A stretch of 42,037 nucleotides of DNA from Chloroflexota bacterium (GTDB lineage: Bacteria > Chloroflexota > Anaerolineae > Anaerolineales > E44-bin32), in assembly GCA_024277995.1 (NCBI GenBank), contig JAJRUD010000207.1, positions 1 through 42,037 of the forward strand, written 5' to 3'. The translations under genes were made by a program, and so were the position numbers. Position 1 is the stretch's first letter; each line of letters starts with the position of its first letter. Of this stretch, positions 30,134-42,037 are shown piece by piece. The notes below the pieces were generated by a model. That model searched no databases. It worked only from the letters and a program-made list of their open reading frames with translations, and had not been told where the DNA came from.

Positions 30134-31690
30134 TCACAGACGACGGCGACGGCGCCACCAGACAGAAACGCCAGAGGCCACCACGCCGCCGGGGATCAGG
30201 ATCACCACACTCAGGAATATCAGCCCCAATGTCCTTATCGAGGGCGGGACCACGAAGCGCTGTGTCTGAGGCTTCGGCGTCAGGTCGATCAGCTTCTCCT
30301 GCCTGGCTGCCCAGTCGACGCTGTTCACGAACAGATCACCATTGCCCAGGTTGAAGTAGTCGCCGTTGGCCGCGAAATCCGAATCTCCGATCACCACCAG
30401 GCGCGCTCCGCTGTCCTGGTCCTGTGCGGCTGCGGCCAGCACCAGCGGAGCCTGCGTGTCCTGCTCCGGGTCGTATTCCAATCGGCTCTCCTCTGAAAAA
30501 CCCTTCAGATCGCGCTCGCCCCAGGCGTTGTCGCCCGTGCGCACGAGGCCCACCTGCGAGAGGTTCGCGCCCTCCACCGGAATGACTTCGATGCTGCGCG
30601 CAGATGGGAAATAGGCGGTCAGATTGCCCATACGCTCCGTGATGGGATGGCTGGCGTACTGCATGCCGATGCCCGCCAGCGGCAGGCTCGAATTCAGGTC
30701 AACGACCAGATCGTCGTTCAGCCGCAGCCCCCACCTCTGCTCGAGGTAAGTCGCCAGAGGGTCCTCGGCGTCGCCGTAACGCGTGGCTAGCGTGGGCTCT
30801 TCGAGCACGACGAGCGACCCGCCGCCACTTAGATAGCGGTCCAGCGCATCGACTTCCTCCTGCCCGAGCGGCACCAGCGGGCCGGCGATGATCACGGCCA
30901 GCGCGTCCTGCGGCACCTCCGCCTGCGCGATCAGGTTCAGCGTCTCCACGGAATAGCTCTTGGCCTGCAGTGCGTCGCTCACCTGGCTGTAGCCGGCTTC
31001 TCCATTCTCGTTGATATCCCGCTCGCCATGGCCTACGAGGAAATACACCTTGCGCTCACCGGGATTGGCCAGGCGCACCAGGGCCGAGGTGATATCCCGT
31101 TCATTCGGGAAGGAGAGCACCTCCGAGGATTCGCCGGCCACCACAACCAGCGTGCCATCGCGCGTCACACCGTATTGGTCGGCTGCGATGGGGTTCTCGA
31201 GTGGATCGATGAACTCGTAATCCACCAATCCATCGCTCTCGATGCGATACTGGTCCAGCAGGGGACGCACGTTGTCGCGTGCCCCGGCCATGTTGGGGGT
31301 GAAAAAGCCCTTGATGGTCACCGGCTGCTGCAGTTGCGACAGGATGAGCTTGGTCTCCGGCGCCAGGGAGTACTGCTGGTCCTCAGTCAGGTCCCAGCGC
31401 GCCGGGTCGGCATAGACGATGTAATTGACCACCACCAGGATGCCGACAAAGGCCGCGGTCATGAGCAGCATGTTGCTCCCATAGCGCGTCTGACGGGTGC
31501 GCAGGGCCCGGCGCACCCGTGCTGGATCCAGAGCGATGGCCCCGATAAAGGCCACCAGCGCCAGCGCAATCCCGATCTGCAGATACACGTCGATGCTGCG
31601 CTGGACCACGTACCAGGCAGCGCTGGCCAGGAGAGATACGACGGCGACCCAATAGGCCGCGGGTACCCAACGACGAAGATCGCCGTTCAT
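30134..31690 (-). CDS. gldG: GldG-like ABC transporter auxiliary protein
   Basis: 518 residues from the ATG at 31690, which overlaps the permease stop as ATGA with GGAGGTG upstream; a GTG two codons earlier is possible. Three N-terminal membrane segments (about 10-105), then a large extracytoplasmic region of the GldG/DUF7088-type fold: DLTEDQQYSLAPETKLILSQ, VYFLVGHGERDINE, LVVLEEPT, and RLVVIGDSDFAANGDYFNLG. A C-terminal membrane anchor ends in WWRRRRRL. The GldAFG transporter is known from gliding Bacteroidetes, but homologues occur in many non-gliding bacteria; the substrate is not established. Confidence 0.88.
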   Translation of the reverse strand: MNGDLRRWVPAAYWVAVVSLLASAAWYVVQRSIDVYLQIGIALALVAFIGAIALDPARVRRALRTRQTRYGSNMLLMTAAFVGILVVVNYIVYADPARWDLTEDQQYSLAPETKLILSQLQQPVTIKGFFTPNMAGARDNVRPLLDQYRIESDGLVDYEFIDPLENPIAADQYGVTRDGTLVVVAGESSEVLSFPNERDITSALVRLANPGERKVYFLVGHGERDINENGEAGYSQVSDALQAKSYSVETLNLIAQAEVPQDALAVIIAGPLVPLGQEEVDALDRYLSGGGSLVVLEEPTLATRYGDAEDPLATYLEQRWGLRLNDDLVVDLNSSLPLAGIGMQYASHPITERMGNLTAYFPSARSIEVIPVEGANLSQVGLVRTGDNAWGERDLKGFSEESRLEYDPEQDTQAPLVLAAAAQDQDSGARLVVIGDSDFAANGDYFNLGNGDLFVNSVDWAARQEKLIDLTPKPQTQRFVVPPSIRTLGLIFLSVVILIPGGVVASGVSVWWRRRRRL

Positions 31691-32418
31691 CGCCACCTCC
31701 GCGATTCCACCGCTTGTGTCCCGAGGAAAAGCGCCAGGGAGGTAAGGCTCAAGAAGTAGACCACATCCGGCAGGTTGATGATCCCGCGGTAGAGGTAGTC
31801 ATAGTAGTGATCCACGATACCCAGGTAGCGGATGATCTCGCTCGCTGTGCCGGCGCCGCTGCCAAGCCCGCTGATCACCCACAGGCCGAGCAGGATGGCG
31901 AGTGTGGTGAAAAAGGCCGCCATGGGATTGTCGAAGAGGGAAGAGACGAAGACTCCCACGGCGAGCATCGAGCCGACCAGCAGCACCAACCCCAGATAGG
32001 CGGTGATGAGCACACCCTGATCGATCCCGGGGTTGGTCATGCGGTGCAGAATCAAGGGGTAGATCCACGTGACGGCGATCACCCCTACCATGAAGCCGAA
32101 GACGCCCAGCCACTTCCCCACGACGAGTTCCCAATCGCGCACGGGGGCCGTGAGCAACAGCTCCAGGGTGCCCATGCGGGCCTCGTCCGCGATGAGACGC
32201 ATGGTGAGCGCCGGCGCCACAAAGAGCAGGATGGTCACCATCGGCCCCATCACCATGCGGCCATCGGGGTTGATCTGTCCCGTCTGCAGGCCGAAGTAGA
32301 TGTTGATGAAGAAAATCACACCCAGGATCAGGTAGAGCATGGCCGCCACCGCGTAAGCGACGGGGGATACAAAGTAGCGGCGCAACTCCCGCCCGGCGAT
32401 GATCCAGATGTTTCGCAT
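31687..32418 (-). CDS. gldF: GldF-like ABC-2 permease
   Basis: 243 residues, six membrane segments, ABC-2 type. RELRRYFVSPVAYAVAAML at the N-terminus and ADEARMGTLELLLTAPVRDW are typical of the GldF/ABC-2 family. Forms the membrane channel with the GldA ATPase encoded 3 bases upstream; its stop overlaps gldG. Tight spacing indicates one operon. Confidence 0.9.
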   Translation of the reverse strand: MRNIWIIAGRELRRYFVSPVAYAVAAMLYLILGVIFFINIYFGLQTGQINPDGRMVMGPMVTILLFVAPALTMRLIADEARMGTLELLLTAPVRDWELVVGKWLGVFGFMVGVIAVTWIYPLILHRMTNPGIDQGVLITAYLGLVLLVGSMLAVGVFVSSLFDNPMAAFFTTLAILLGLWVISGLGSGAGTASEIIRYLGIVDHYYDYLYRGIINLPDVVYFLSLTSLALFLGTQAVESRRWR

Positions 32419-32421
32419 ACG

Positions 32422-33366
32422 CTATCCTTCCGCCCTCGCTTCCGTTCCAGCGTCTTCGCGCGTCAATTGCAGGAAGACCTCTTCCAGGCTGAGCCCGGCA
32501 GAGCGCAGTTCGAGCAGGTCCAGATCAGCTTCCACCACCGCCCTGGCCACCAGTGGGCGAACGTCCTGGCCGGGCGCACTGCGCACCTCGACTTCGCCTT
32601 CATGCTCGGTGGGCTTCACTTCCACCACCCCATTGACGGCCCGCAGCAGGGGCACCAGGTCTCGCGCTTCGGCGGCGGCTCGGACCAGAATCTGCTCCGC
32701 ACCGGCCAGCTGCGCCTGCAGGTTGGCCGGGGTGTCCTCGGCGACGATGCGCCCTCTATTGATGATCATCACCCGATCGCATACCTGCTGCGCCTCAGAG
32801 AGGATGTGCGTCGAGAGCATAACTGTGTGGTCCGCACCCAGATCCTGAATCAGGTTGCGAACCTCGATGATCTGCGCCGGGTCGAGGCCGATGGTCGGCT
32901 CATCGAGGATGAGCACCTCCGGGTCGTGCAGCAGCGCCTGACCCAGGCCCACACGCTGCCGCAGTCCCTTGGAGAGGCTCCCGATGTAGCTCTCCGCGCG
33001 CTCCAGCATGTCGACCCGCTCCAGCACTTCCTCGATGCGCGTTTCCAGCTCCGGCACCCGACGCAGGGAACCCATGAACTCCAGGTACTCGACGACGGTC
33101 ATCTCCGGATACAGTGGCACCGTTTCCGGCAGGTAGCCGACGCGCTTGCGCACCTCCAGGGACTCCTCCAGCACATCGAATCCGGCGACCCTGGCCGTCC
33201 CGCTCGTCGGCGGCATGTAGCCAGTCAGGATGCGCATGGTGGTGGTCTTGCCGGCACCATTCGGTCCCAGGAAACCCACGATCTCGCCCGTCTCGGCGCG
33301 GAAGGTCAGGTCCTGGATCGCGGGGTGCAAGCCGTAATACTTGGTCAGCCCTTCGACTTCGATCAT
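32422..33366 (-). CDS. gldA: GldA-like ABC transporter ATPase
   Basis: 314 residues. Walker A GPNGAGKTT at 34-42, Q-loop region VGYLPETVPLYPEMTV, signature LSKGLRQRVGLGQALLHDP, Walker B VLILDEPTIGLDP, and the switch His in LSTHILSEAQ. The C-terminal extension (about 215-314) is usual for ABC-2 exporter ATPases of this type. AGAGGAAAAAGG precedes the ATG. First full-length gene of the gldA-F-G-DUF4340 operon, behind a strong promoter and a 33-codon upstream open frame that ends on its ATG. Confidence 0.93.
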   Translation of the reverse strand: MIEVEGLTKYYGLHPAIQDLTFRAETGEIVGFLGPNGAGKTTTMRILTGYMPPTSGTARVAGFDVLEESLEVRKRVGYLPETVPLYPEMTVVEYLEFMGSLRRVPELETRIEEVLERVDMLERAESYIGSLSKGLRQRVGLGQALLHDPEVLILDEPTIGLDPAQIIEVRNLIQDLGADHTVMLSTHILSEAQQVCDRVMIINRGRIVAEDTPANLQAQLAGAEQILVRAAAEARDLVPLLRAVNGVVEVKPTEHEGEVEVRSAPGQDVRPLVARAVVEADLDLLELRSAGLSLEEVFLQLTREDAGTEARAEG

Positions 33367-33829: not shown

Positions 33830-36187
33830 ATGTACTCAATGGAAGGATTGACCCCCTTCGAGGCAGCTGCCATTTGGAGCGTACTCGGGGTGGCGATTCT
33901 GGGCCTTTTGTATGCCATCCTCCTGCGCGTGCAGATCCTGCGCGAGGACAAAGGGACGCCGGGCATGCAGGAAGTCTGGAACGCCATTCGTGAAGGCGCC
34001 GAAGCCTACCTCGGGCAACAATCGCGCAGCATCCTGCCGCTCATCGGCATCCTCACCCTGGCGTTGTTCCTTTCGGTCTACATCGTGCCCCCCACGCCGG
34101 AAGCGCTGGACCGTTTCGCCGGCCTGAGCGAAGACAGCGTGCGCCTGATCATTGGCTTCGGCCGCGCGCTGGCCTTCGTCATGGGCGCTGGCTTCAGCCT
34201 GGCCGTGGGCCAGATCGGCATGCGCATGGCCGTCCAGGCCAACGTGCGCGTGGCTGCTGCGGCGCGCTATTCCTTCGGTGAGGCCCTGCGCATCGCTTAC
34301 CGCGCCGGCACGATCACCGGCATGCTCACAGACGGCCTGGGGCTGTTCGGCGGCACCATCATCTTCATCTTCTTCGGCATCGCCGCGCCCGACGCACTGC
34401 TCGGTTTCGGCTTCGGCGGCACGCTGCTGGCGCTCTTCATGCGCGTCGGCGGCGGCATCTACACCAAGGCCGCCGACGTGGGCGCCGACCTGGTAGGTAA
34501 GGTCGAGGCCGGCATCCCCGAGGACGACCCGCGCAACCCGGCGGTGGTGGCCGACCTGGTGGGCGACAACGTCGGCGACTGCGCAGGCATGGCCGCTGAC
34601 ATCTTCGAGTCCTACGAGGTGACCATCGTTTCCGCACTGATCCTGGCCCTGGCCCTCTGGCACATCACCGGCCATCTGGAATGGATCATCTATCCGCTGC
34701 TCGTGCGCGGCATCGGCGTGCTGTCCTCCATCATCGGCACCTACCAGGTGAAAGGTGGCGACGCAGAGGGCGGCGATGCGATGAAGGCCATCTTCCGCGG
34801 CTTCCTCTCCTCGGCCGCCATCTCGGTCTTCTTCTTCGGCCTGGTGGCCATTTTCTACATGCCCGAGGTCCCCGGCGGCTGGTGGCGGCCCTTCGCCGCA
34901 ACGACCGTCGGCGTGCTGCTGGCCATCGCCATCGACCGCCTGACGGACTACTTCACCGGCAGCCACAGCCAGCCCGTGAAAGATATCAAGAAGTCCACCG
35001 ACACCGGCGCCGCCACGACCATCCTGACCGGCATCGCCGTGGGCTACGAATCCAGCGTGTGGTCGATCCTGGTCATCGCCATCACCATCTTCACCTCCAT
35101 CCTGATCTTCGGCACCATTCCCGGCCTGAGCGGAACCGAACAGGTGACCTTCGTGCTCTACGGCGTAGCCATGAGCGGCATCGGCATGCTCACGCTGACG
35201 GGCAACAACGTGGCCATGGACTCCTATGGCCCCATCGCCGATAACGCCAACGGCATCGCCGAGATGTCCTGGCAGGATGACGATAGCGAGGACGTCCTGC
35301 GCGCCAAGCGCATCCTGGCCGACCTGGACGCCGTGGGCAACACCACCAAGGCCATCACTAAAGGCATCGCCATCGGCTCGGCCGTGATCGCGGCCGTGGC
35401 CCTCTTCGGCTCATTCCTGGTGGACGTCAGCCGGGCCCAAGCGACGCTCGGCATCCCGCTCGAACAACAGATCCAGAGCCTGGGGATCAGGGTGGACGTC
35501 CCGCAGGTATTCGTGGGCATGCTCATCGGCGGCGCGCTGCCATGGCTGTTCTCGGCCTTCGCCATCAACGCCGTGAGCCGCGCGGCCGCTCTGATCGTCG
35601 AGGAAGTGCGGCGCCAGTTCAAGCTGGGCGTGCTGGAGGGCAAGGTCAAGCCCGACTACACGCAGGCGGTGAGCATCTCCACCAATGCCGCCCAGAAAGA
35701 GCTGGTCTCGCTCGCCCTGCTGGGCGTGGTGACGCCCATCCTGGTCGGTCTGGTGCTCCAGGTGGAGGCGCTGGGCGGCTTCCTGGCTGGCATCATCCTC
35801 TCGGGCCAGCTGCTGGCCGTGTTCATGAACAACGCCGGCGGCGCGTGGGACAACGCCAAGAAGACCATCGAGGACGAACCACGCGACCCGGCCGCCAACC
35901 TGGGCAAGGGCTCGGAGCGGCACAAGGCGAGCGTGGTGGGCGACACTGTCGGCGACCCCATGAAAGACACCGCCGGCCCGGCGCTCAACCCCATGATCAA
36001 GGTGGTCAACCTGGTCTCGGTGATCATCGCCCCCATCGTCGTCCAGTACGATACCCTGGGCATCGTCGGCTGGACCTCGGTCGTGCTGCTTACCGGCATC
36101 CTGGTCCTGGCCATTCGTCACAGCAAGCGCCCTGCGCCGAAGCTGATCGCCATACCAGAGCAGGAGCCCCAACCGGTGGGCGATTGA
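33830..36187 (+). CDS. hppA: Membrane-bound H+-translocating pyrophosphatase, K+-independent type
   Basis: 785 residues with about 16 membrane segments. It hydrolyses pyrophosphate and pumps protons out of the cytoplasm. The substrate-binding block begins DVGADLVGKVEAGIPEDDPR at residue 216 and continues with VVADLVGDNVGDCAGMAADI; the C-terminal block has NNAGGAWDNAKKTIE and KASVVGDTVGDPMKDTAGPA. In GNTTKAITKG the Lys is residue 507 and the Thr is 510; Lys and Thr at these places mark the K+-independent class (K+-dependent enzymes have Ala and usually Gly or Ala). Na+ pumping is known only in the K+-dependent class, so H+ is expected. Strong promoter, monocistronic by the hairpin that follows. 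Confidence 0.97.
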   Translation: MYSMEGLTPFEAAAIWSVLGVAILGLLYAILLRVQILREDKGTPGMQEVWNAIREGAEAYLGQQSRSILPLIGILTLALFLSVYIVPPTPEALDRFAGLSEDSVRLIIGFGRALAFVMGAGFSLAVGQIGMRMAVQANVRVAAAARYSFGEALRIAYRAGTITGMLTDGLGLFGGTIIFIFFGIAAPDALLGFGFGGTLLALFMRVGGGIYTKAADVGADLVGKVEAGIPEDDPRNPAVVADLVGDNVGDCAGMAADIFESYEVTIVSALILALALWHITGHLEWIIYPLLVRGIGVLSSIIGTYQVKGGDAEGGDAMKAIFRGFLSSAAISVFFFGLVAIFYMPEVPGGWWRPFAATTVGVLLAIAIDRLTDYFTGSHSQPVKDIKKSTDTGAATTILTGIAVGYESSVWSILVIAITIFTSILIFGTIPGLSGTEQVTFVLYGVAMSGIGMLTLTGNNVAMDSYGPIADNANGIAEMSWQDDDSEDVLRAKRILADLDAVGNTTKAITKGIAIGSAVIAAVALFGSFLVDVSRAQATLGIPLEQQIQSLGIRVDVPQVFVGMLIGGALPWLFSAFAINAVSRAAALIVEEVRRQFKLGVLEGKVKPDYTQAVSISTNAAQKELVSLALLGVVTPILVGLVLQVEALGGFLAGIILSGQLLAVFMNNAGGAWDNAKKTIEDEPRDPAANLGKGSERHKASVVGDTVGDPMKDTAGPALNPMIKVVNLVSVIIAPIVVQYDTLGIVGWTSVVLLTGILVLAIRHSKRPAPKLIAIPEQEPQPVGD

Positions 36188-36280: not shown

Positions 36281-38395
36281 ATGCGCGCCCGACCCTTGTA
36301 TTCCCAAAGGACGGCCCGCCGGCTCCTCTGGAGCCTATTCCCTGCGCTGGCACTTCTGCTCCGCTGGCTCCTCCCGCAACGCCCTGCTGGCGAGGTAGGC
36401 CCGCGAGCGCTGGTTGACGCCGGGCTCAGCCTGATGCTGACCGCCAGCGTCCTTACGGCGGCGTTCCTCCTCGGCCGCAGGGCGTTGCGGGCCTTCCACA
36501 TGCAAGACACCACACCGTTGGAGCACGGCCTGCTAGCCGCCACTCTCGGCCTCGGCGCACTGGCCTACGCCGCGACCGGGCTTGGCCTGGCGGGCTGGCT
36601 GAACCAGGCCACCCTGGCCGCCACGCTCCTGGCCGCCGCCTGGATTGGCGCGACCCAGCCTCCCACACTGCCGCCCGACTTTGCCTCCCAGCTTCGCAAG
36701 AGCTGGCGTGGCCTGGGTTGGCTGCAGCGGGCGATCGCCTTTCAGGGAGGCTTGATCGCGCTGCTGGCCCTCATCTACGCCCTGGCCCCACCCTGGGACT
36801 ACGACGGCCTGATGTACCACTTGGTGGGTCCTCGCATCTTCCTCGAGGCTGGGCGCATCTTCCCTTACCCGGATATCTGGTACCTGAACGGCCCCTTTTC
36901 TGTGGAAATGCTCTTCGCCTTCGGCATGGCCCTGGGCGATGACATTTTCCCCAAGCTCATCCATTACGCGTTCGGCGCGCTCCTGCTGCTATCCACAGGC
37001 ACTCTCGCCCGCCGCTGGCTCGGCCCCAGGGGTGCCTGGCTGGCCGTGGCCACCTTGCTCACCATCCCTACCCTCCCCCTCCTGGCCGCCTTGGCCTACA
37101 TCGATCTCGCCTGGGCTACCTATGAGTTCCTGGCACTGGTTCTCGTGGTATGGTGGGCGGAGACGCAAGAAGAAGCCCTGCTCCTGCTGGCTGGGGTCTT
37201 CCTCGGCCTGGCCTTGGGGACGAAATACCTGGCGCTTTTCGGCCTGCTTGTACTGGCCGCCCTGGTGTGGACGCGGGTCTGGCGCCGGCCTTTGGGCATT
37301 CAGGCGCGCGCGCTGCTGTACCTCCTTGGCCCGGCCTTGGTCCTCGCCGCCCCCTGGTACTTGAGGAACGCCCTCTGGTTCGGCAACCCTGTCTATCCTC
37401 TGCTCTTCGGCGGGCCCGGCTGGGATGCCGAAAGCCTGGGTCTCACACAGGCCTACATCCAGAGCTTCGGTACCGGACGCCGCTGGTCAGACTGGTTGCT
37501 ATTGCCCTGGAACATCTACCGTCACCGCCAGGCCTTTGGCGCCGTCATGAACGCCATCGACATCCCGAGCGTCCTCTTTCCCCTCCTGGTCCTGCTGCCG
37601 CTGCGCAAGGTGCCCCGGCCCATACCCATGCTGGTGACGGCCTCAGCCGCTCGCTTCCTGCTCTGGGCGCTGGGGTCCCAGCAAGTGCGCTTCCTGCTTC
37701 CCATCTATCCTGCGCTCGCCCTGGGCGTTGCTGCCCTGCTGCCCAGGCTGCTGCGCCGCGAGCGGGTCCGCCCAGCCTGGGTAAGCCTGTTCCCCATGCT
37801 AGCAGTCGGCCTGATCTTCGTGACCCTCTTCTACCAGGTTCGCCTGCTCACCCAGAACGCCCCTTATCGTCCGGTTCTGGGCCTCGAGAGCCGTAAGGCC
37901 TTCCTCAACAGGACGGTCTCCGACTATTCAGCGCTGCAATGGGCCGAGGGCATGCTTGGCCCCGATGAAAAGGTGCTGCTCTTGGGTGATGGCCGCAGCT
38001 ACTACTGTTACCCGCGCTGTATCCCAGACCCATCCCATTTCCGCTGGGCGGCGGCCATCCGGGAGTTGCCAGACCCCGCTGCCCTCGTGCTCTGGATGGA
38101 AGATCGTGGGGCCCGATTCCTTTTGATCAACTGGGAAGACTTAGAATTCCTGCTGCAGCACGATCCGAAGAACGTCTTGCGGTCGGCGCTTGTGCGGCTC
38201 ATCGCCTGGCGAGAGCAAGGTTGCCTGCGCCAGGTCTATGCAGACGACAAGACGGAGATCTACCTTCCTGGCTGTCAGGGCCAGGGGGACGCGGATGCCC
38301 GCTATCGGCTTGGCATAAACCTGGCAACGCCCACCGCCGCGTTCTCCATGCCCCGTGACTCCCGAACAGGAGCGCCCCGTGGACCCGCCAGCTGA
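36281..38395 (+). CDS. Large GT-C-type membrane protein (L), paralogue of 15819-17774
   Basis: 704 residues, about 12-14 membrane segments. An N-terminal block of about five segments precedes ALAPPWDYDGLMYHL with Asp175 and His180, matching Asp165 and His170 in protein C; VEMLFAFGMALGDD matches its TELLYTWGMILGGE. The C-terminal domain has SYYCYPRCIPD where protein C has GYYCQPVCIPD. The shared two-cysteine motif may form a disulfide outside the membrane. Probably a glycosyltransferase of the GT-C superfamily with unknown sugar. AGAGG abuts the ATG, which is unusually close. The last 17 bases overlap the next gene, suggesting coupling. Confidence 0.8.
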   Translation: MRARPLYSQRTARRLLWSLFPALALLLRWLLPQRPAGEVGPRALVDAGLSLMLTASVLTAAFLLGRRALRAFHMQDTTPLEHGLLAATLGLGALAYAATGLGLAGWLNQATLAATLLAAAWIGATQPPTLPPDFASQLRKSWRGLGWLQRAIAFQGGLIALLALIYALAPPWDYDGLMYHLVGPRIFLEAGRIFPYPDIWYLNGPFSVEMLFAFGMALGDDIFPKLIHYAFGALLLLSTGTLARRWLGPRGAWLAVATLLTIPTLPLLAALAYIDLAWATYEFLALVLVVWWAETQEEALLLLAGVFLGLALGTKYLALFGLLVLAALVWTRVWRRPLGIQARALLYLLGPALVLAAPWYLRNALWFGNPVYPLLFGGPGWDAESLGLTQAYIQSFGTGRRWSDWLLLPWNIYRHRQAFGAVMNAIDIPSVLFPLLVLLPLRKVPRPIPMLVTASAARFLLWALGSQQVRFLLPIYPALALGVAALLPRLLRRERVRPAWVSLFPMLAVGLIFVTLFYQVRLLTQNAPYRPVLGLESRKAFLNRTVSDYSALQWAEGMLGPDEKVLLLGDGRSYYCYPRCIPDPSHFRWAAAIRELPDPAALVLWMEDRGARFLLINWEDLEFLLQHDPKNVLRSALVRLIAWREQGCLRQVYADDKTEIYLPGCQGQGDADARYRLGINLATPTAAFSMPRDSRTGAPRGPAS

Positions 38396-39419
38396 GACCA
38401 CCCCAGATCAACGCGTCGCCCTCTGCCTGATCTCCAGCCCCGAGCATGTCTGGCCTGGCCACCCCGAGCAGCCGGAACGCCTCGAACAGCTGGCCTGCGC
38501 GCTGGAGACCTTTCCTGGCCTATGGCTTGAATCCGCCGAAGTACCGGACGCCGTTCTGGAAGCTGTCCACCAACCTTCCTACCTCGAACATCTACAGCGC
38601 GCCGCCGAGACCGCCCCGGGCTTCCTCGACCCCGACACCTATATCACTCAGGATTCCTTCCAGGCCGCGCTGGCGGCCGTGGGCGGCTGCTTGGCCGTAT
38701 TGCAGGCAGTGCTGCAGGGCAGGACGCCCCACGGCTTCGCCCTCATCCGGCCCCCGGGTCACCACGCGAGCGCCGCACGCGCCATGGGTTTCTGCCTGCT
38801 CAACAATGTCGCCATCGCCGCGCGACGGTGCCAGCAGATGGGCCGTGAGCGGATCATGATCGTGGACTTCGACGTGCACCATGGCAACGGCACCCAGGAG
38901 ATCTTCGAAGACGATCCCTCCGTGCTGTACCTGTCAACACACCAGAGAGGCATCTATCCGGGAACGGGTGCAGCCGAAGAGCGGGGCCGCGGGGCCGGCC
39001 AGGGAACGACCGTCAACATCCCCCTCCCGGCCGGCGCGGGGGACGGGGCTTTCCGGCAAGTCGCACAGGCGATCATCAGGCCCATCGCCGAGCGATTCCG
39101 GCCAGAGATGCTCATGGTCTCTGCCGGGTTCGACGCCCACTGGCGCGATCCGCTGGCTGGTCTGCAGCTGACCTGCACGGGATACTACCAACTGGCGAGT
39201 TCGCTCATCGCGCTCGCTGACGAGCACTGCGGGGGGCAGATCCTCTTCGTGCTGGAAGGGGGATACGATCCGGAAGTGCTCAGCGCAAGCGTCCTGGCCA
39301 CCCTGCACGCCATGCTGGGCGAGGGCCCGCCCCCAGACACCATCGGCCCCGCGCCGCGCCCGGAACCGGACATCACTTCCGTGTTGACCCTGGCAGCCAG
39401 GCGCCACAGCCTCTCCTGA
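38379..39419 (+). CDS. Histone deacetylase family protein (AcuC/class II-like)
   Basis: 346 residues from a GTG at 38379, 6 bases after CAGGAG; a GTG at 38355 in frame lacks such a site. All catalytic residues of the zinc-dependent arginase/deacetylase fold are present: RPPGHHA (His128, His129), DFDVHHGNG (zinc ligands Asp165 and His167), STHQRGIYPGTG, SAGFDAH (zinc ligand Asp252), and LEGGYD (Tyr296). The LEGGY motif points to the class II/bacterial group whose members deacetylate polyamines, acetyl-lysine or other small amides; the substrate here is unknown. It overlaps the end of the upstream membrane protein by 17 bases, so the two are probably expressed together. Confidence 0.93.
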   Translation: MDPPAETTPDQRVALCLISSPEHVWPGHPEQPERLEQLACALETFPGLWLESAEVPDAVLEAVHQPSYLEHLQRAAETAPGFLDPDTYITQDSFQAALAAVGGCLAVLQAVLQGRTPHGFALIRPPGHHASAARAMGFCLLNNVAIAARRCQQMGRERIMIVDFDVHHGNGTQEIFEDDPSVLYLSTHQRGIYPGTGAAEERGRGAGQGTTVNIPLPAGAGDGAFRQVAQAIIRPIAERFRPEMLMVSAGFDAHWRDPLAGLQLTCTGYYQLASSLIALADEHCGGQILFVLEGGYDPEVLSASVLATLHAMLGEGPPPDTIGPAPRPEPDITSVLTLAARRHSLS

Positions 39420-39636: not shown

Positions 39637-42037
39637 ATGGCTGAGATAAACCTGCGAACCTACACACGGGAGATCGACGACCTCATCGAGCATGAACAGC
39701 TCGACGAGGCTATCGCCCATTGCAGGCACATCCTGCAAACCTATCCCAAGCATCTGGCCACCTACCGCCTGCTCGGCAAGGCCTATCTCGAAGCACAACG
39801 CTACGGGGACGCGGCCGACATTTTTCAGCGTGTGCTTTCGGCGATACCCGATGATTTCGTTTCGCATATCGGCATGTCCATCATCCGCGAGGACGAGGGC
39901 AACCTGGACGCCGCCATCTGGCATATGGAGCGCGCCTACGAGACCAATCCCGCCAACCCCGCCATTCGACAGGAACTCACCCGCCTGATCGGGCGCCGGG
40001 ACGGCATCGAGCCGCACAAGATCCGCCTGACGCGCGGCGCGCTGGCCCGAATGTACGCACACGGTGAACTCTATTCCCAGGCCATCGCAGAGCTGCGAGC
40101 CGCCCTCCAGGAGGACCCCGATCGCCCCGACCTGCAGGTGTTGCTGGCCGAGATGTATTGGAGAACTGACCAGCGACCTGAGGCCACCGATGTCTGCAAG
40201 CGCATTCTCGCCAACCTGCCCTACTGCCTGCAGGCCAACCGCATCATGGCCGCCACTTTGCAGGCCAGCGGGAAATCGGAAGAGGCTGCCGTCCACCATC
40301 GCAAGGTCGCCGCGCTGGATCCCTATGCAGCCTACCTCGAGACGGCAATGGCCGATCCGCTCACCGTGGACGCCGGCTCCATTCGCATCGAGAAATTGGA
40401 ATGGTCCCCCGGACAACCTTTGCCTGCCGCCGCTCCCGGACAGCCGGATTGGGCGGCTTCGCTCGGCGTCGAACTGCAGGAAGAAGCAGCACAGGAATCG
40501 CCCGCCGCGGCGCCTCCTCCATCCTGGCTGGATGGATTGCAGGCCGAAAGCCCTCCCACCGCGGCAGAGCCAGCCGCGCAAGAGGCCCCGACAGCAGCCG
40601 AAGAGGGCGAAGAGGCCGAGATACCCGAATGGATGCGCGAAGCCGGCTGGCAGGAAGCAGCCGGCGAGGTGCAGGAGCAGCCCGTCAGCTTCACCGAAGA
40701 AGAGTTGGCCCGGCTGGAAGCCGGAATGCCCCCAGGGGAAGAACCGGACGAGGGCGAACTCGTCCCCGCCGACATCCCCGATTGGCTCCAGGAAGTCGCG
40801 CCCAAGGAAGCGGAGGCACCCGCCGAAGAGGCTGATTCCGAGCCTGTTGGCGCGGATCTACCAGACTGGCTGCATGACATCGCCGCCGACGCGGGTCAGG
40901 TGATGCCAGAACCGGAGCCGGAGCAGGCCGTTCCCGAAGCGGAACCGCCTGCAACCGCTCCTGAACCGACGCCTGAAGCGACACCCGAAGCGACACCCGA
41001 AGCAACAGCCAAGTCCGAAGCGGAGGGAGAGGTTCCGGCGTGGCTGGACGCGGGCGAGCCCGGAGCGACGTCCACCATTGTGACGTGGCTCGGCGAGAAA
41101 CAACCAGAAGCTCCAGCTCCGGCCGAGGAAGCACCTGCTGAACCAGGCGAAGAAGCCATGCCGGAATGGATTCCGGACGCGGCAAGCATCGCGGCCGCAG
41201 AAGAACAAGCACAGCCAGAGTCAGAGTCCACAGAACCCGAACCACCGGCGTGGCTATCAGGTGTCGCGGCAGCCGCTTCCCAGGACGAGGGGCTGTCGCC
41301 CGACGAAGCCGCGCGTCTGAGAGAGCAAGCCGCAACAGCCGGGATCTCGGAGCCCGGAGAGCCCAGGCAGGAAGCCGCCGTCCCTGACTGGCTCCGGCAA
41401 ATCGCCCAGGGGGAAGGACCGCAACCGGCGCAGCCACAGGCAGACCTGGAACCCAGTGCCGCAGGCGAACCGGAGCCCGAGGCCGAAGCCGCACCCGCAG
41501 CCGAGCCCGCCGCCGAGACACCCGACTGGATCCAGGGCCTGGCTGAAGGTGAGTCAGAGGGCGAAGCCGCCCCCGAAGCGGAACCTGCCGCCGAGACACC
41601 CGACTGGATCCAGGACCTGGCCGCAGGTGAACAGGAGCCCGAGGCCGAAGCCGCACCCGCAGCGGAACCCGCCGCCGAGACACCCGACTGGATCCATGAC
41701 CTGGCCGCAGGTGAACCGGAGCCCGAGGCCGAAGCCGCACCCGCAGCCGAGCCCGCCGCCGAGACACCCGACTGGATCCAGGGCCTGGCCGCAGGTGAAC
41801 CGGAGCCCGAGGCCGAAGCCGCACCCGCAGCCGAGCCCGCCGCCGAGACACCCGACTGGATCCAGGGCCTGGCTGAAGGTGAGCCAGAGGGCGAAGCCGC
41901 CCCAGAAGCGGAACCTGCCGCCGAAGCCCCTGATTGGCTCCAGGGCCTGGTCGAAGGTGAGCCAGAGGGCGAAGCCGCCCCCGAAGCGGAACCTGCCGCC
42001 GAAGCCCCCGATTGGCTCCAGGGCCTGGCTGAAGGTG
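39637..42037 (+). CDS. TPR protein with a long acidic tail of Pro-Asp-Trp repeats (3'-truncated)
   Basis: Open from the ATG at 39637 (AGGGAG upstream) to the window end, 800 codons visible, no stop. Residues 1-about 240 are tetratricopeptide-type helical repeats (EHEQLDEAIAHCRHILQTYP, AYLEAQRYGDAADIFQRVLS, ELYSQAIAELRAALQEDPDR), a protein-interaction scaffold. From about 265 on the chain is Glu/Ala/Pro-rich, very acidic and presumably disordered, and carries a P-x-W motif followed mostly by Leu or Ile at least 16 times: nine scattered variants (PDWA, PSWL, PEWM, PDWL, PAWL, PEWI and others) and seven regular copies in a tandem array at the end. No signal peptide, so cytoplasmic. Function unknown; a hub with many copies of one docking motif is the natural reading. 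Confidence 0.85.
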   Translation, partial: MAEINLRTYTREIDDLIEHEQLDEAIAHCRHILQTYPKHLATYRLLGKAYLEAQRYGDAADIFQRVLSAIPDDFVSHIGMSIIREDEGNLDAAIWHMERAYETNPANPAIRQELTRLIGRRDGIEPHKIRLTRGALARMYAHGELYSQAIAELRAALQEDPDRPDLQVLLAEMYWRTDQRPEATDVCKRILANLPYCLQANRIMAATLQASGKSEEAAVHHRKVAALDPYAAYLETAMADPLTVDAGSIRIEKLEWSPGQPLPAAAPGQPDWAASLGVELQEEAAQESPAAAPPPSWLDGLQAESPPTAAEPAAQEAPTAAEEGEEAEIPEWMREAGWQEAAGEVQEQPVSFTEEELARLEAGMPPGEEPDEGELVPADIPDWLQEVAPKEAEAPAEEADSEPVGADLPDWLHDIAADAGQVMPEPEPEQAVPEAEPPATAPEPTPEATPEATPEATAKSEAEGEVPAWLDAGEPGATSTIVTWLGEKQPEAPAPAEEAPAEPGEEAMPEWIPDAASIAAAEEQAQPESESTEPEPPAWLSGVAAAASQDEGLSPDEAARLREQAATAGISEPGEPRQEAAVPDWLRQIAQGEGPQPAQPQADLEPSAAGEPEPEAEAAPAAEPAAETPDWIQGLAEGESEGEAAPEAEPAAETPDWIQDLAAGEQEPEAEAAPAAEPAAETPDWIHDLAAGEPEPEAEAAPAAEPAAETPDWIQGLAAGEPEPEAEAAPAAEPAAETPDWIQGLAEGEPEGEAAPEAEPAAEAPDWLQGLVEGEPEGEAAPEAEPAAEAPDWLQGLAEG
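41461..42037 (+). repeat. In-frame tandem repeat array, 78/84-bp units
   Basis: Each unit encodes a Pro-Asp-Trp-Ile/Leu motif, usually then Gln-Gly-Leu, and an acidic Glu/Ala/Pro spacer. The Pro codons stand at 41521, 41599, 41683, 41767, 41851, 41929 and 42007, giving spacings of 78, 84, 84, 84, 78 and 78 bases. All are multiples of three, so 26- or 28-residue units. Near-identity at DNA level between the 84-base units points to recent duplication. The array continues past the window end. Confidence 0.95.

Follow-up and report, generated by a model that had tools for sequence, protein, structure and literature searches.

A P-x-W-L motif repeated in the disordered tail of a Chloroflexota TPR protein and in an unrelated membrane protein suggests a multivalent docking system

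Background

Why would a bacterial protein repeat one tryptophan-centred motif many times along a single disordered tail? The question is raised by an open reading frame at the end of the window, by which we mean the whole 42,037-nucleotide stretch of DNA analysed here. The frame (39637..42036, plus strand) starts with an ATG, covers 800 amino acids within the window and is still open at the contig end. The original prediction described an N-terminal TPR domain and an acidic tail with at least 16 P-x-W motifs, scattered at first and then in seven regular in-frame copies, and supposed from the sequence that each motif might serve one partner and that the protein might be a multivalent hub or a condensate scaffold. 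The features of the locus, all on the plus strand, are as follows.

38355..39419, plus: histone-deacetylase-family gene directly upstream (PF00850, E 5e-95)
39637..42037, plus: open reading frame of the TPR / P-x-W-L protein, continuing on another contig of the same genome (G000:C46:1-1716, locus L004)
39637..40341, plus: N-terminal TPR domain, aa 1-235 (Pfam matches; relatives)
40372..42036, plus: acidic tail, predicted disordered, aa 246-800 (composition; low pLDDT in the linker of orthologue L074)
40444..40455, plus: PDWA, the first motif, in the conserved element LEWxPGQPxP...QPDWAASLG (family alignment)
40519..40530, plus: PSWL motif (motif count, family alignment)
40624..40635, plus: PEWM motif in the conserved element IPxWMREAGWxExxGE (family alignment)
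40681..40725, plus: PVSFTEEELARLEAG element, resembling by eye the PFSLEELGLSPEEIAQLE unit amplified in distant homologues
40777..40788, plus: PDWL motif in the conserved element ELxPADIPDWLQxIAP (family alignment)
40861..40872, plus: PDWL motif (motif count, family alignment)
41035..41094, plus: PAWL motif, then the conserved element PGATSTIVTWLG (family alignment)
41161..41172, plus: PEWI motif (motif count)
41245..41256, plus: PAWL motif (motif count)
41383..41394, plus: PDWL motif (motif count)
41458..42037, plus: young in-frame tandem array of 78/84-bp units, continuing on C46

Results and discussion

An end of the gene near the end of the window was ruled out, the rest of it being found on C46. 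The window's final 133 bases are identical to the first 133 of that contig, as expected for an assembly break inside a repeat. The joined protein has 20 motifs, a C-terminal TPR pair and about 1327 amino acids, a length that depends on the uncertain copy number of the array at the break. Alanine, glutamate and proline make up some 59% of the joined tail, and the net charge of the joined protein is about -228. TPR_19, TPR_14, TPR_16 and TPR_2 all score above the Pfam cut-off, the first two over aa 16-173 with E-values of 1.5e-18 and 2.3e-15. The named TPR equivalogs of NCBIfam (MamA, PrsT, PilW and others) are alike in having TPR repeats, but all matches to them fall far under the curated cut-offs, including the best one (MamA, 63.7 bits against 200) and PrsT (57 against 312), and we know of no NCBIfam-named TPR protein with a motif tail. 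In an AlphaFold model of the orthologue L074 (864 aa, 24 sequences), helical repeats occupy both ends, with a pLDDT of about 97 for the N-terminal and about 96 for the C-terminal TPR, and the linker between them lies mostly below 50; short helices begin at several motif copies of this linker, at a low model confidence (pLDDT mostly 35-75). In one relative, G015, the neighbour of the full-length gene encodes another copy of the TPR domain without a tail (L051:12719-13498, 260 aa).

The tail within the window (aa 246-800) contains 19 tryptophans, 16 of them within P-x-W-[LIMVAF], compared with 0.99 such motifs expected under residue shuffling; the largest shuffle gave 7 and none of 5000 reached 16. 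The predicted domain and motif content is borne out. The DNA pattern CCNGANTGGHT matches the window 14 times, with 1.4 matches expected, and 12 of these lie inside the TPR gene. The two kinds of spacing are also as described. Seven motifs (41521, 41599, 41683, 41767, 41851, 41929, 42007) belong to the tandem array that fills the last 580 bases (41458-42037; TRF score 697-798), and their regularity is no sign of selection because the array is young and arose at the DNA level. In the older, non-tandem part (aa 246-607) there are 9 motifs against 0.61 expected (0/5000 shuffles), and it is these scattered copies that, as judged from the sequence, are evidence of selection.

The N-terminal TPR domain is found in 54 of 61 relatives (E<=1e-20); phylum-wide, 92 of 251 genomes have it (E<=1e-25), Anaerolinea, Bellilinea, Longilinea and Thermanaerothrix among them. 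Full-length orthologues in Anaerolineales measure about 800-1700 amino acids and conserve the order of TPR, tail and TPR. Each of those examined has several copies of the motif (5-27, median 13), and one truncated frame, L193, has a single copy. When 18 orthologues of the same family were aligned with the window's own protein as the reference, ten tail Trp columns were 95% identical to it and the Pro at -2 86%, as against 41% for other tail prolines and 36% for the spacer columns outside the core, a difference that is inflated by aligners matching Trp with Trp first and by the conservation of Trp itself, which in any protein exceeds that of all other residues. None of 20000 random column sets matched the Trp-column value. 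Since the Trp and Pro columns are far more conserved than the spacers, the motif is, on this alignment evidence, under selection, as had been proposed for the older part of the tail; its repetition above chance and its conservation relative to the spacers are the marks of a multivalent scaffold of short linear motifs.

Across 877 distinct Trp contexts, the preferred residues are [ED] at -4 (54%), L/I/V at -3 (44%), P at -2 (68%), D/E at -1 (59%), L/M at +1 (75%) and L/A/I at +4 (49%), giving the consensus [ED]-[LIV]-P-[DEAS]-W-[LM]-x-x-[LIA]. Several copies sit in individually conserved elements that follow one another in a fixed order (QPDWAASLG; IPxWMREAGWxExxGE; ELxPADIPDWLQxIAP; PTWLxxxxPGATxTIVTWLG), indicating that these copies are not interchangeable spacers.

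The neighbourhood of the gene is conserved on one side. On C46 the next genes are ndk and a sir2-family gene. The TPR gene is immediately followed by ndk in 59 of 63 complete Anaerolineales cases and, among the distant homologues, in 13 of the 18 whose downstream sequence could be read, a linkage that supports orthology beyond TPR similarity. Linkage to the upstream histone-deacetylase-family gene was observed in the family to which the window belongs and in a few more, but not in most Anaerolineales. In the genome under study the TPR gene and ndk are thus flanked by genes of two unrelated deacylase families, the histone-deacetylase family (38355-39419) and the Sir2 family (L004:2276-2986). 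Elsewhere in the window, an ABC-type cluster (30134-33366, minus strand) encodes an ATPase, an ABC-2 membrane protein and a GldG-like PF09822 protein and adjoins a membrane H+-pyrophosphatase (33830-36187), a synteny repeated in several relatives.

The motif is not private to the TPR protein. A DNA search for paired motifs recovered one further cluster in the same genome (contig C168), present also in several relatives, and this corresponds to an unrelated protein (L075:2932-5163; further loci L110-L115, L215-L223 and L230-L233) in which a zinc ribbon is followed by an acidic linker, a transmembrane segment, a Rossmann-like domain and a second transmembrane segment. The linker, which the N-terminal zinc ribbon suggests to be cytoplasmic, carries between 7 and about 20 motifs, whose position preferences match those of the TPR tail; short forms of the membrane protein without a linker occur in family f29. 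Apart from a weak zinc-ribbon match this second carrier has no Pfam domain, and it has no match in the PDB by sequence and none by fold at E<=1e-3, the only fold matches being weak Rossmann-like ones. The paired-motif search recovered no third motif-rich protein in this genome and 14 relatives, with a pattern that matches only leucines encoded by CTN and overlooks proteins in which the motif is sparse. Separate lineages have their own tandem arrays, in which each unit holds one motif while the spacers differ between lineages; by a strict P-x-W count the motif is present in 7 of 24 arrays of the TPR family and in 13 of 16 of the membrane-protein family, several of the remaining arrays being plain proline-rich repeats close to the C-terminus.

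The gene for the second carrier is part of a five-gene cluster conserved across the phylum, which encodes a DUF6754 membrane protein, a membrane protein, the motif protein, another membrane protein and a MutL/GlmL-type ATPase. The ATPase resembles the GlmL/MutL family in its match to PF13941 (E 4e-57) but scores 83 bits against a GlmL equivalog cut-off of 475, so that it is not GlmL and is probably another ATPase of the same superfamily.

The search for motif tails across Chloroflexota had a divided outcome. Anaerolineales orthologues have them, whereas four TPR homologues examined from families f33, f43, f68 and f71, which are probably Chloroflexales, have acidic tails that are just as long (about 850-1530 amino acids) without P-x-W-L, built instead on PFSLEELGLSPEEIAQLE, with 11-31 copies of PF[ST][LFW] (for example LTPFSLEELGLSPEEIAQLE); the arrays of such Chloroflexales-like TPR proteins likewise consist of PFSL and not of P-x-W. 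Tails of the same composition that lack the motif therefore do exist in this distant block, and within the window's own family the Trp is conserved. In the distant TPR homologues L195, L196, L197 and L205, PFSLEELGLSPEEIAQLE (PFSLEELGL motif) is amplified up to about 30 times. The Anaerolineales tail retains a single element, PVSFTEEELARLEAG, that is similar by eye. The swap of one motif for another implies that the architecture of the scaffold predates its motif. In the genomes of the same four families the membrane protein keeps the motif (23-49 copies), and a TPR tail devoid of the motif alongside a membrane protein full of it shows that the two carriers are separable. Across 19 genomes, how often a Trp has Pro at -2 in one carrier is not significantly correlated with how often it does in the other (rho 0.33, p 0.17); both are Pro-poor in G281, and both lack the motif in G185 and G073.

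Such fluidity would be expected if the Trp and Leu residues were low-specificity stickers in an acidic bristle or spacer, providing weak self-cohesion or solubility control without a dedicated reader, the second protein having converged on them through amino-acid bias. The tails are biased in composition and span a threefold range of length, their arrays expand and contract freely, and the motif has been replaced wholesale in the distant homologues. However, the two unrelated carriers have position preferences in common (P at -2 in 64-85%, L at +1 in 66-90% and an acid at -4 in about half), and several copies in the window's family keep a fixed order and individual flanks. Both observations argue against this explanation, which we regard as unlikely.

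If the motif has a dedicated reader, the protein's own TPR groove might be considered, as TPRs bind peptides and an acidic ligand would suit a basic groove. Motifs read in cis or between molecules would then build a self-associating network open to the membrane protein. At the predicted groove positions, basic residues vary hardly at all in Anaerolineales (R44 in 46/47, K48 in 45/47, R84 in 42/47, R138 in 41/47), but L199, L203 and L209 carry 6-9 motifs and yet resemble the motif-free homologues, having E or Q at position 48 and either Y or S at position 84, and R138 is retained with or without motifs. Groove charge as a correlate of the motif, which fits Anaerolineales and fails in other homologues, was rejected. 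Moreover, G106 has a motif-bearing membrane protein and no detected TPR protein. Self-recognition by the groove appears to us very unlikely.

A different candidate is suggested by the FtsZ C-termini of the same genomes, NDLDIPAFLRRR, in which D-[IV]-P-x-F-L-R shares its register with [ED]-[LIV]-P-x-W-L-[RKQ]. SepF is one known reader of the FtsZ peptide; it was found in 0 of 251 Chloroflexota genomes, with control genomes matched, and is ruled out as the reader of the motif. FtsA is present in 248 of the 251, and its profile is uninformative because it is near-universal in the phylum and the motif is not. The SepF-FtsZ structure paper reports that D, P and F are strictly conserved in the FtsZ peptide at the same spacings (DDLDVPSFLQ in C. 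glutamicum) and that the peptide is helical in complex with FtsA (PMC7118173). The two carriers might accordingly mimic this peptide, being recruited by, or competing for, an actin-fold receptor (FtsA or the MutL/GlmL-like ATPase encoded in the membrane cluster) and so linked to the division site. The motif does have the D-Phi-P-x-aromatic-L pattern, but not the C-terminal position or the basic residues after the core: its many copies are internal, with Trp in place of Phe and mixed residues at +2 and +3, often E or D. A sequence search of the PDB gave no relative of the MutL-like protein, and a resemblance over five positions may be due to chance. We consider such mimicry distinctly unlikely, and the likeness to FtsZ is a lead only. 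In most of 31 relatives the FtsZ C-terminal domain model has two matches, one strong and one weaker, which suggests two FtsZ-like proteins per genome.

Conclusions

We give about an even chance to the reading, drawn from sequence comparison, that the TPR protein is a multivalent docking hub whose putative partner also binds the membrane protein. The TPR protein would be a soluble, two-ended scaffold, with a TPR domain and a TPR pair joined by a long acidic disordered linker. The consensus would act as a short linear motif for docking that is disordered in the unbound state; from the modelled helices we infer that it may become helical upon binding, Pro and Asp capping a short amphipathic helix whose Trp, Leu and +4 hydrophobic residue would be buried in the partner. 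Many copies would confer avidity. Because the motif is present also on the predicted cytoplasmic linker of the membrane protein, one common reader seems most likely; it would bind both carriers, tie the soluble scaffold to the membrane complex and perhaps cluster it at the membrane. In its many aromatic motifs, disordered tail and folded domain the system is like the multivalent scaffolds of endocytic adaptors (DPW/NPF-type), a likeness drawn with no claim of homology, but it is bacterial, uses P-x-W-L rather than D-P-W or N-P-F, and has TPRs at both ends. A bolder version, to which we attach little probability, would see in [ED]-Phi-P-x-W-L an undescribed cytoplasmic docking code of the Chloroflexota, carried both by the TPR scaffold and by a membrane complex that includes an actin-fold ATPase, derived from or converging on the FtsZ C-terminal peptide and organising a phylum-specific division- or envelope-associated assembly.

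Literature searches turned up no description of PDWL as a motif, the three hits for it being unrelated, and none of DUF6754 or of a comparable TPR protein from Chloroflexi. No described role was found for either carrier, as the original prediction had stated for the TPR protein. The motif system is real, conserved and undescribed, new as a family and known as a kind, that of multivalent linear-motif scaffolds. A motif common to two unrelated core proteins is a cheap entry point into a phylum for which little cell biology exists, and the five conserved genes of the membrane cluster offer a second handle on the system.
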